Below are positions 60,305 through 63,542 of a stretch of 64,000 bases of DNA, piece by piece. How positions within the stretch are numbered: the first letter of the stretch is position 1; each line of letters starts with the position of its first letter. The position numbers were made by a program, and so were the translations under genes. The notes under the pieces were generated by a model. It made no database searches and was not told where the DNA came from. It saw only the letters and a list, made by a program, of their open reading frames with translations. The stretch comes from Alphaproteobacteria bacterium (GTDB lineage: Bacteria > Pseudomonadota > Alphaproteobacteria > TMED109), in the NCBI GenBank assembly GCA_030828505.1, contig JAURCJ010000004.1, positions 1-64,000 of the forward strand, written 5' to 3'.

Positions 60305-61075
60305 ATGAAATTAACAAATGAACAAATAAATTCTTTTAAAGAGTTGGGGTATGTATTTCTAGAGAATGTTTTTGACACAATAGAAATAGATAAAATGAAT
60401 AAAGAACTACCTAGACTTTATAATTTAGACAAGGAACAAATTCAGCGTGAGAAAGATGGTAAAGCTGTGAGAACTGTCTTTGCTGCACACGAGTTAAGTG
60501 AAGTTTTTTCTAACCTTTCTAGGCATCCTAGGATTGTTGAGCCCGCTAAACAACTTTTAGGTGGAGATGTATATATTCATCAATTTAAAGTAAACGGAAA
60601 AGAAGCTTTTGATGGAGATCTTTGGCAGTGGCATCAAGATTATGGAACATGGAAAAATGATGATGGAATGCCAGAGGGTTTAGCTCTTAATGTGGGATTA
60701 TTTTTGGATGACGTTACGCAATTTAATGGGCCATTAAATTTTATTCCTAGGTCTCATAGAGATGGATATATAGAAGCAAATCATGATATAACCACAACTT
60801 CTTATCCTTTGTGGACTATTAATAATGAGACTATTTCTAAATTAGTAGAAAAAGGTGGAATAGTTGCACCTCAAGGCAAAGCTGGTTCGATGATATTATT
60901 TGATTCTACTTTAGTACATGGATCACCATCTAATATGTCTCCATGGAGCAGAACTATAGTCTATATCTCTTTAAATAGAACCAGTAATTGTATAACTAAA
61001 TTTAATAGACCAGAATATAAAGCACATAGAGATTTTACGCCTATTACTTGTGTGGATGATTCTTGTTTAAGATAA
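60305..61075 (+). CDS. Phytanoyl-CoA dioxygenase (PhyH)-family Fe(II)/2-oxoglutarate oxygenase
   Basis: A 256-residue non-haem iron oxygenase. The facial triad is His110 and Asp112 in WQWHQDYGTW, and His205 in LVHGSPSN. Arg216 (SPWSRTIVY) would bind 2-oxoglutarate. The stretch WHQDYGTWKNDDGMP is close to the ectoine-hydroxylase-like branch of PhyH, but no ectoine genes are here, so the substrate is open. It lies in the ggt operon, 16 bp downstream of ggt, and upstream of the SAF-domain dehydrogenase. Hydroxylation of an amino acid-derived or small metabolite is plausible, not shown. Confidence 0.85.
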   Translation: MKLTNEQINSFKELGYVFLENVFDTIEIDKMNKELPRLYNLDKEQIQREKDGKAVRTVFAAHELSEVFSNLSRHPRIVEPAKQLLGGDVYIHQFKVNGKEAFDGDLWQWHQDYGTWKNDDGMPEGLALNVGLFLDDVTQFNGPLNFIPRSHRDGYIEANHDITTTSYPLWTINNETISKLVEKGGIVAPQGKAGSMILFDSTLVHGSPSNMSPWSRTIVYISLNRTSNCITKFNRPEYKAHRDFTPITCVDDSCLR

Positions 61076-61095
61076 TATAGAATAATAAAATTTAA

Positions 61096-62451
61096 ATGAA
61101 TCTAGATTTAACTGATCGATTAATTAAAAAACAAGAAGAAGGAAAATTATTTCGTATAGGAGTAATAGGTTTAGGTAAGTTTGCTACCATGTTTCTTTCA
61201 CAGGCGAAAAATACACCTGGAATTGCAATTACTGCAATAGCGGATTTAGATTATAAAAAAGCAGAAGCTTCTTTAAGAACTGCAGGTTATGAGCAAGATT
61301 TAAATACATCTGGATATAATGATGCTCAAGTATTAAATCAGATATGGTATACAGACTCGGGTTTAAAGCTAGCTGAATGTGATCAATTAGACCTTGTAAT
61401 CGAAGCCACAGGTAATCCAGAGGCTGCAGTAGACCACTGTCTTTCTGCGTTTAAGGCTAAGTCACATGTCGTTTTAGTAACAGTTGAAGCTGATATATTA
61501 TGCGGGCCTGCAATTATAAAAAAAGCTAATGAAGCCGAAGTTATTTGTTCTATGGCTTATGGAGATCAACCTGCTTTAATTTGTGAATTAATTGATAGAA
61601 TAAAAAGCTCGGGCTTCGAAGTTGTTTGTGCAGGAAAGGGTACAAAGTATTTACCTATATACCATAAAAGTACTCCATCAACAGTTTGGGATTATTATGG
61701 TTTAACTGAGCAAGAAGCAAATGCTGGAGGACTAAACCCTAAAATGTTTAATTCTTTTTTAGATGGCACTAAGTCTGCAATAGAAATGGGTGCTTTAGCT
61801 AATGCTACTGGGTTAACTGTCCCAGATGATGGATTACTTTTCCCACCTGTAGGAACGTCTTCTCTTTCAAAAATTTTAAAACCGAAAGAATCTGGAGGAG
61901 TTCTATCTAGTTCAGGATCTGTTGAGGTAGTGTCATCTCTAAATAGAGATGGTACAGAAATACCAGATAATTTGCGATGGGGAGTATTTGTTGTTTTTAA
62001 ATCTAATTCTAAATATACGGAGCAATGCTTTAGAGAATATGGAGTTCCAGTGGACGAAAGCGGAGAATTTGCCTCTTTATGGAGACCAATTCATTTAATA
62101 GGTTCTGAATTAGGTTTTAGTGTTGCTACAGCTTTACTGGATAACAGGTCTACGGGATCAACCAAAGAGTTTACTGGTGATGCCGTATCTGTTGCAAAAA
62201 GAAATTTAAAAGCGGGAGAATTTTTGGATGGCGAAGGGGGAACGACAGTATGGGGAAAACTAATCCCAGCCTCCAAATCTATTTCTTTAAACGCTTTACC
62301 TATAGGTTTAGCCCATAACGTTAAACTTATAAATGACGTACCGGAAGGACAAGTGGTCTCTCAAAAAGATATAAGTTCTATTAAAGTATCTAATGCCTAT
62401 ACATTAAGAAAAGAAATGGAAGCTGATTTTATAGAAAGTCATAAAAATTGA
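61096..62451 (+). CDS. NAD(P)-dependent dehydrogenase with SAF domain
   Basis: A 451-residue protein. The N-terminal Rossmann fold has GVIGLGKFA (residues 22-30), and a homoserine-dehydrogenase-like core follows. The segment ALLDNRSTGSTKEFTGDAVSVAKRNLKAGEFLDG leads into a C-terminal SAF domain (about residues 365-445), which in other families binds sugar-acid or antifreeze-like ligands. This architecture is often annotated only as NAD(P)-dependent oxidoreductase, or wrongly as a flagellar protein because of SAF. Substrate unknown. Its stop overlaps the next TTG start by 3 bp (TTGA), which indicates tight coupling. Confidence 0.75.
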   Translation: MNLDLTDRLIKKQEEGKLFRIGVIGLGKFATMFLSQAKNTPGIAITAIADLDYKKAEASLRTAGYEQDLNTSGYNDAQVLNQIWYTDSGLKLAECDQLDLVIEATGNPEAAVDHCLSAFKAKSHVVLVTVEADILCGPAIIKKANEAEVICSMAYGDQPALICELIDRIKSSGFEVVCAGKGTKYLPIYHKSTPSTVWDYYGLTEQEANAGGLNPKMFNSFLDGTKSAIEMGALANATGLTVPDDGLLFPPVGTSSLSKILKPKESGGVLSSSGSVEVVSSLNRDGTEIPDNLRWGVFVVFKSNSKYTEQCFREYGVPVDESGEFASLWRPIHLIGSELGFSVATALLDNRSTGSTKEFTGDAVSVAKRNLKAGEFLDGEGGTTVWGKLIPASKSISLNALPIGLAHNVKLINDVPEGQVVSQKDISSIKVSNAYTLRKEMEADFIESHKN

Positions 62452-63542
62452 AATTTGACTTAATTCCTTACAAAGGTTTTTTTCCTAAAATAGGAAAAGA
62501 TGTGGTTGGAGCGAGTACTTCAACTGTGATTGGAAACACAGTATTAGGCTCAGAGTGTATTCTTAAAGATAGAGTTGTCTTGAGAGGCGATGGAGCAGAA
62601 ATAATTGCTGGCAAAGAAGTTGTATTTTTAGATAGAAGCACTGTACATGTAGCTAGCGATTTAATGGGCTCATATATTGGCGATGGCTCAATTATTGGCA
62701 GGTTTTCTCTTGTTCACGCCTGTAAAATAGGAAAATCTGTAATTCTCGGAGATCAAGCCATTGTTATGGATGGGTCTGAAGTAGGTGATAATTGTATTAT
62801 TGCTGCAAATTCTTTAATACCTCCTGGAAAAACTTTTCCTAATAATTCAATAATATCAGGTGCACCAGCTAAAATAATTGGAACAACTGAAAATAAAAGT
62901 TTTAGAAAATACAGATTTGAAATTTTAAATAATGAGTATTTACTTGATAGCATTGTTAGAAGTAACGCAGAAGGAGATGACCCATTGGCAGAGCTTGGTT
63001 TAGATCCATGGGTAAATTATAAAGTGGGATTAGAGAGAATTAGTTCTAGAGCATTTGTTGCTCCTGATGCAATTATAAGAGGAGATGTTACTGTAAAAGA
63101 TAAAGCTAGTTTATGGTTTGCTACAATTATTTCTTCATTGCCTGGAGGAAATATTTTTATAGGAGAAGGCTCTAACATTCAAGATAATACTATAATTGAT
63201 GTAGGAGAAAATTCTCTGGTTATAGGTAAAAAAGTCACGGTAGGACATAATGTAAGGTTAGGGGCATGCACTATAGGGGATAACTGCTTAATTGGGATGG
63301 GATGCACTATTGAGGATGATGCTATAATTGAAGAAGATGCTTTTGTTGGTGCTCGTGCAATTGTTAAAGCAGGAACTGTAGTAAAGGCTAATACGATATT
63401 TGCAGGTAGGCCAGCTAATTATTTTAGAGATGTAAAAGATGAGGAAGCTAATTTTTTTAAGATGGGTCAAAAAATATACGAGGGGTTTGCAGAAGATTAT
63501 ATTAAAGAACTGGGTCCATATAAAGCACAGGATAAAAATTAA
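62448..63542 (+). CDS. Tandem gamma-carbonic-anhydrase-like left-handed beta-helix protein
   Basis: A 364-residue protein made of two gamma-class carbonic anhydrase-like beta-helix domains (about 15-145 and 195-325), each rich in hexapeptide repeats. Aligned to the Cam metal ligands His81/His117/His122, domain 1 has His67/Arg85/His90 and domain 2 has Asp251/His267/Gly272. The ligands are thus complementary between domains. Domain 1 keeps the RGD-type Arg46/Asp48, domain 2 keeps the NIQD Gln245. Start TTG 62448 overlaps the dehydrogenase stop. It could be a hydratase, a scaffold, or a metal enzyme with an inter-domain site. Confidence 0.85.
   Translation: MKFDLIPYKGFFPKIGKDVVGASTSTVIGNTVLGSECILKDRVVLRGDGAEIIAGKEVVFLDRSTVHVASDLMGSYIGDGSIIGRFSLVHACKIGKSVILGDQAIVMDGSEVGDNCIIAANSLIPPGKTFPNNSIISGAPAKIIGTTENKSFRKYRFEILNNEYLLDSIVRSNAEGDDPLAELGLDPWVNYKVGLERISSRAFVAPDAIIRGDVTVKDKASLWFATIISSLPGGNIFIGEGSNIQDNTIIDVGENSLVIGKKVTVGHNVRLGACTIGDNCLIGMGCTIEDDAIIEEDAFVGARAIVKAGTVVKANTIFAGRPANYFRDVKDEEANFFKMGQKIYEGFAEDYIKELGPYKAQDKN

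Follow-up and report, generated by a model that had tools for sequence, protein, structure and literature searches.

A fused double-domain gamma-carbonic-anhydrase-like protein with the halves of a putative interface metal site in different domains

In Cam, the gamma-class carbonic anhydrase (CA) of Methanosarcina thermophila, the metal site lies at an interface, where one subunit contributes His81 and His122 and the neighbouring subunit His117 (PMC4519908). The window, as we call the whole 64,000-nucleotide stretch of alphaproteobacterial DNA analysed here, contains a gene in which two gamma-CA-like domains follow each other in a single chain, each short of histidines. This locus raises the question whether such a protein can still possess a site and, if so, where it would be formed. 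Our best explanation, to which we assign a probability of roughly 0.82, is a protein of the gamma class with a metal site at the interface between domain 1 and domain 2, the interface, the metal binding and the catalysis all being inferred.

Gene and domains of the window protein

In the window, the fused gene comes third and last in a tightly spaced group (Table 1). Its TTG start, which close relatives share, has four bases (TTGA) in common with the end of the preceding gene, including that gene's stop codon. The order of this apparent operon (60305-63542) was found also in the genomes G006 and G007 and is absent from relatives more distant than these; the neighbourhood of PhyH and DRL genes is confined to the genus of the window and one neighbour. 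Elsewhere in the window, positions 16001-48000 display a strongly positive GC skew, with nearly all long open reading frames on the plus strand.

Table 1. Positions in the window of the fused gene, its upstream neighbours and the residues discussed in the text.
Feature	Position	Strand	Remarks
PhyH / ectoine-hydroxylase-like dioxygenase	60305..61075	+	first gene of apparent operon
Oxidoreductase with DRL catalytic domain	61096..62451	+	directly upstream gene, same apparent operon
Fused double-domain gamma-CA-like gene	62448..63542	+	364 aa, TTG start
Domain 1, residues 5-152	62460..62903	+	left-handed beta-helix; half-site Arg46, Asp48, His67, His90
Arg46-Gly47-Asp48 (RGD; Cam Arg59/Asp61)	62583..62591	+	Arg and Asp invariant in domain 1
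His67 (Cam His81)	62646..62648	+	invariant in domain 1
Arg85 at Cam His117 position	62700..62702	+	R/E/Q/P/A, once H, among homologues
His90 (Cam His122)	62715..62717	+	invariant in domain 1
Linker, about residues 163-194	62934..63029	+	low model confidence; length and sequence variable
Domain 2, residues 195-348	63030..63491	+	left-handed beta-helix and C-terminal helix; half-site Asn243, Gln245, Asp246, His267
Asn243-Ile-Gln245-Asp246 (NIQD; Cam Asn73, Gln75, Asp76)	63174..63185	+	Asn/Gln/Asp invariant, in domain 2 only
Asp251 at Cam His81 position	63198..63200	+	His never there in homologues
His267 (Cam His117)	63246..63248	+	invariant in domain 2
Gly272 at Cam His122 position	63261..63263	+	His never there in homologues

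The NCBIfam gamma-CA model matches two stretches of the protein and the Pfam Hexapep model three. Searched separately, each half found solved gamma-CAs, with best E values of 6e-23 for domain 1 and 9e-32 for domain 2. Foldseek gave TM scores of about 0.82-0.90, normalised by target length, to many single-domain gamma-CA chains, in agreement with a gamma-CA fold. As these matches are single chains, each covering one domain well, they could not be used to derive the domain-domain geometry.

Three metal-ligand histidines per subunit are present in neither domain and are reached only by both domains together. The second-shell set (Arg59, Asp61, Asn73, Gln75 and Asp76 of Cam) is complete in the chain as well, the Arg and Asp lying in domain 1 and the Asn, Gln and Asp in domain 2. 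An earlier note, made from the letters alone, had described both halves as gamma-CA-like, with two ligand histidines and RGD in domain 1 and the third histidine and NIQD in domain 2. Its residue assignments at the three ligand positions of both domains were correct, the two motifs are conserved accordingly in the aligned homologues, and the likeness of both halves to gamma-CAs is borne out by the two matched stretches and the separate hits to solved structures. Judged by its own histidine triad, each domain would wrongly be called dead.

Compared with single-domain CamH-type gamma-CAs of Alphaproteobacteria, the window protein has the same fold, residue positions, short His81-His117 loop and C-terminal helix; unlike it, these proteins, as judged from 35 controls, carry the full histidine set in each chain and form their site by homotrimerisation. 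Cam is a homotrimer too, and furthermore has an acidic loop bearing the proton shuttle, which is missing from the window protein. CamH proteins likewise lack this loop, and some of them are inactive (PMC7447434).

Complementary halves among two-domain homologues

About 50 further two-domain homologues were found across many genera, which rules out a recent local oddity or an assembly error. A search of the relatives of the window and of its class yielded 23 fused proteins, belonging to the family of the window (f1) and to a second uncultured alphaproteobacterial family (f125). A profile search extended to the phylum brought in the genus g227 of family f71, a distant group in which the fused gene was present in all 37 genomes searched; it was found in none of the 24 genomes searched from other genera. 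This genus is almost certainly Methylobacterium, because a homologue from Methylobacterium bullatum is 78% identical and several fae homologues occur in the g227 genomes. Plasmid copies were identified in Xanthobacter autotrophicus Py2, Agrobacterium deltaense and the betaproteobacterium Methylibium petroleiphilum PM1. Since the M. bullatum protein is close to that of genome G308, distinct full-length proteins are best counted as 49-50. The occurrence of the same protein in the presumed Methylobacterium genus, in Xanthobacter Py2 and in Methylibium PM1 makes our reading testable in cultured bacteria. A stand-alone gamma-CA partner encoded in the same genome can be set aside, as the genome of the window (70% complete) and most relatives yielded the fused gene alone, G025 being an exception.

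At the positions of Cam His81, His117 and His122, domain 1 reads H-x-H and domain 2 x-H-x in all 46 full-length proteins of one alignment, and His never occurs at position 81 or 122 of domain 2. Pairwise identity in this alignment falls to about 24% in domain 1 and 20% in domain 2. Four homologues from plasmid or named records agree, with H-P-H/R-H-E, H-A-H/R-H-V, H-R-H/D-H-R and H-R-H/R-H-A. When partial sequences were included in a larger alignment, the kept residues were found in 49/49 first and 47/47 second domains. The lost positions vary freely, position 117 of domain 1 among R/E/Q/P/A/H, and positions 81 and 122 of domain 2 among D/N/R/V/F/S/L/I/T and G/A/E/D/V/R. The single additional His at position 117 of domain 1 belongs to one homologue (L031:1489-2577), which has a full triad within that domain.

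Among 28 aligned first domains, 17 of the 148 columns are invariant, including Arg46, Asp48, His67 and His90; among 26 second domains there are 14 of 154, including Asn243, Gln245, Asp246 and His267. A naive draw of these eight preset columns would have a probability of about 1e-4 x 4e-5, a value that ignores the family-wide conservation of such residues. As judged from these alignments, the invariance of the half-sites is far beyond chance, and the main force comes from the loss of the other half of each site, although single-domain controls keep it in 35 of 35 cases; these controls have the full His set and, except for one Asp-to-Glu replacement at position 61, the whole residue set. The RGD position varies in domain 2, where two f125 members have RGD or RAD as well, and the NIQD position of domain 1 varies or has Arg in place of Asp. 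Random decay of two redundant domains is ruled out by the invariance of the complementary halves.

In ordinary gamma-CAs the Arg of RGD and the Asp of NIQD form an inter-subunit ion pair (PMC8000050). Taken with the published division of His81/His122 and His117 between subunits, this pair implies that each domain, so far as its sequence tells, has retained precisely those residues that belong to one side of the interface. In our reading of the hexapeptide register, Arg59, Asp61, His81 and His122 would share one face of the beta-helix, and Asn73, Gln75, Asp76 and His117 the preceding face. Because related bacteria preserve the same two complementary halves, a working site is very probably formed where these meet.

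The earlier note had also proposed a site at the domain 1-domain 2 interface, had named random loss among two-domain homologues as a finding that would speak against it, and had likened the protein to the mixed CA/CAL trimers of plant complex I. In the homologue search the loss proved complementary throughout (all 46 full-length proteins and the four recorded homologues), which supports the proposed site at the level of sequence and evolution, and published data support the comparison with the plant trimers. In Vigna complex I, zinc is found only at the CA1-CA2 interface, CA1 lacking one His and CAL2 two (PMC7447434). The heterotrimer of CA1, CA2 and CAL2 in plants and algae is similar in consisting of unlike subunits, two of them short of His, with one full interface (PMC7447434), and, at the level of residues, the window protein too exhibits complementary ligand loss that leaves one complete interface. 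The plant trimer differs in being built from three separate gene products, of which CA2 keeps all ligands, whereas here neither domain of a single bacterial polypeptide is complete and no link to complex I was seen; no complex I genes were noticed beside the fused gene in the neighbourhoods that we read, which was not a systematic search. The family would offer a clean natural case in which duplication or fusion, together with reciprocal loss, made a homo-oligomeric interface enzyme dependent on a hetero-interface; other examples of this step, the plant CA/CAL proteins among them, usually involve separate paralogues. Our literature search found no two-domain gamma-CA with a split site, though papers behind a subscription may have escaped it.

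In a tree of 91 domains, one branch (SH-aLRT 99) sets the first domains apart and another (96) the second domains, with f1, f125 and f71 represented in both clades. The tree was obtained by a quick search, has long branches and leaves out the plasmid homologues found later. Because first and second domains form separate clades, the tree agrees with a single ancient fusion, after which the proteins diverged while the split persisted. It is compatible both with an internal duplication and with a fusion of two older gamma-CAs, and the deeper origin remains open. Our data thus show which residues are present, that the kept ones do not vary, that the losses are complementary and that the fusion arose once.

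Putative reaction and gene neighbourhoods

Since no member of the CA residue set has been lost from the chain, interconversion of CO2 and HCO3- is the most likely reaction, although we give this inferred activity only about even odds. The genome of the window encodes also a beta-CA (G000:C1:70855-71349, 7 kb beyond the window), so its main CA is not necessarily the fused protein. A related genus includes two largely complete genomes, G010 (97%) and G014 (91%), in which neither an alpha- nor a beta-CA was matched, which makes the fused protein the only CA candidate there.

We rank CA activity as the first choice and acyl-CoA hydrolysis as its main rival. PaaY-type relatives of gamma-CAs hydrolyse CoA thioesters, and the site could be real, metal-binding and located at the same interface while serving CoA-ester pathways, so that only the reaction would differ. 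We regard this as unlikely, yet as the alternative that deserves most attention. The best family matches of the window protein include PaaY and CaiE, and some homologues are associated with CoA-ester operons, as in that family; its members, however, are single-domain proteins, and the plain gamma-CA equivalog NF050158 scores higher (220.8 bits, below its cut-off of 250) than PaaY (152.3 bits, cut-off 319.6) or CaiE (131.6 bits, cut-off 305), the window protein staying far under both of the latter cut-offs.

The neighbourhoods speak for thioester hydrolysis in some lineages only. In Xanthobacter Py2 (L140:5152-11669), Methylibium PM1 (L141:2765-12506) and A. deltaense (L142:4372-11636), the gene lies within 2-hydroxyisobutyryl-CoA mutase-type operons on conjugative plasmids, beside genes for a B12-binding protein, CoA ligase, MeaB, acyl-CoA mutase and cobalamin adenosyltransferase. 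For Methylibium, hcl has been described as arranged like an operon together with hcmAB and meaH (PMC7176365). In addition, the f125 gene comes directly after meaB and an HcmA-like mutase that shares 65-70% identity with that of Methylibium (L106:3637-7433, with a gap of about 10 bp, and L107:3183-6947). No such operon surrounds the gene in the family of the window or in Methylobacterium, where only longer and more distant mutases (about 41-44% identical or less) occur elsewhere. A single conserved neighbourhood for the whole family was not found, the PhyH-DRL arrangement being local and the mutase operon limited to other lineages. Our literature search returned no relevant paper linking 2-hydroxyisobutyryl-CoA mutase with carbonic anhydrase and none that mentions the fused gene in the hcm-type plasmid operons; its presence there provides a concrete hypothesis for an unassigned gene in a studied pathway. 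We lean, with some reserve, towards an enzyme family with a permanently divided site that would work only as an asymmetric domain 1-domain 2 assembly and that in some lineages would be dedicated to operons of B12-dependent acyl-CoA (2-hydroxyisobutyryl-CoA) mutases.

Assembly of the proposed split site

Under the interface reading, an ancestral homomeric site would have become an obligate domain 1-domain 2 site within a single fused polypeptide. Each site of an ordinary gamma-CA trimer draws His81/His122 with Arg59/Asp61 from one subunit and His117 with Asn73/Gln75/Asp76 from its neighbour. Domain 1 would be fixed permanently in the first of these roles and domain 2 in the second, and the complete site, composed of the two half-sites given in Table 1, would arise only where the domains pack in the right sense, domain 1 then domain 2 around the threefold axis. 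A mixed trimer of the type 1-2-1 or 1-2-2 would contain just one complete site, its other two interfaces being dead, as in the plant CA/CAL heterotrimer; three chains could give both kinds of mixed trimer, each with a single complete site. Against this reading it counts that chains of two domains leave a trimer unevenly filled and that the L031 homologue has its own triad inside domain 1. We nevertheless consider the split-site architecture very likely, with support confined to sequence and evolution; distances, metal binding and CO2 hydration are inferred.

AlphaFold2 was run on single chains with alignments of the family's own proteins and gave a mean pLDDT of 74 and a pTM of 0.81 for the window protein, and values of 91 and 0.90 for the homologue of L091. 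With two domains of nearly equal size, such a high pTM should reflect a confident prediction of how they are placed relative to each other, which is our inference and involves no His-His distances; pTM reports confidence in a placement and is silent on which placement it is.

The value of 0.90 for an isolated chain suggests stable packing within one chain and could equally speak for a pseudo-dimer of domains 1 and 2 without a third member, a variant of the interface reading that differs in assembly and would have one complete site per chain. Unequal beta-helix pairs exist in eIF2B and dynactin, and family matches of the protein include the DCTN5 and eIF2B beta-helices. However, gamma-CA-type chains act as trimers and every close solved relative is of this trimeric kind, and we hold the pseudo-dimer to be doubtful.

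That the two domains form separate, metal-free homotrimers serving as a structural or binding scaffold is very improbable: gamma-CA-like subunits without full sites do exist, for example plant CAL2 (PMC7447434), and two homotrimers would neatly suit a two-domain chain, but the half-site invariance across alpha- and betaproteobacteria, including the cross-interface pair Arg46/Asp246, would be left unexplained, and in a domain 1 homotrimer Arg46 is inferred to stand opposite Arg63, where Asp normally sits. Arg63 (62634-62636), at the NIQD Asp position of domain 1, would clash with Arg46 in such a homotrimer and possibly disfavour it. It is invariant in the f1, f125 and Methylobacterium proteins, and the position is occupied by W, G or M in the Xanthobacter, Methylibium and Agrobacterium homologues, so that Arg is not universal.
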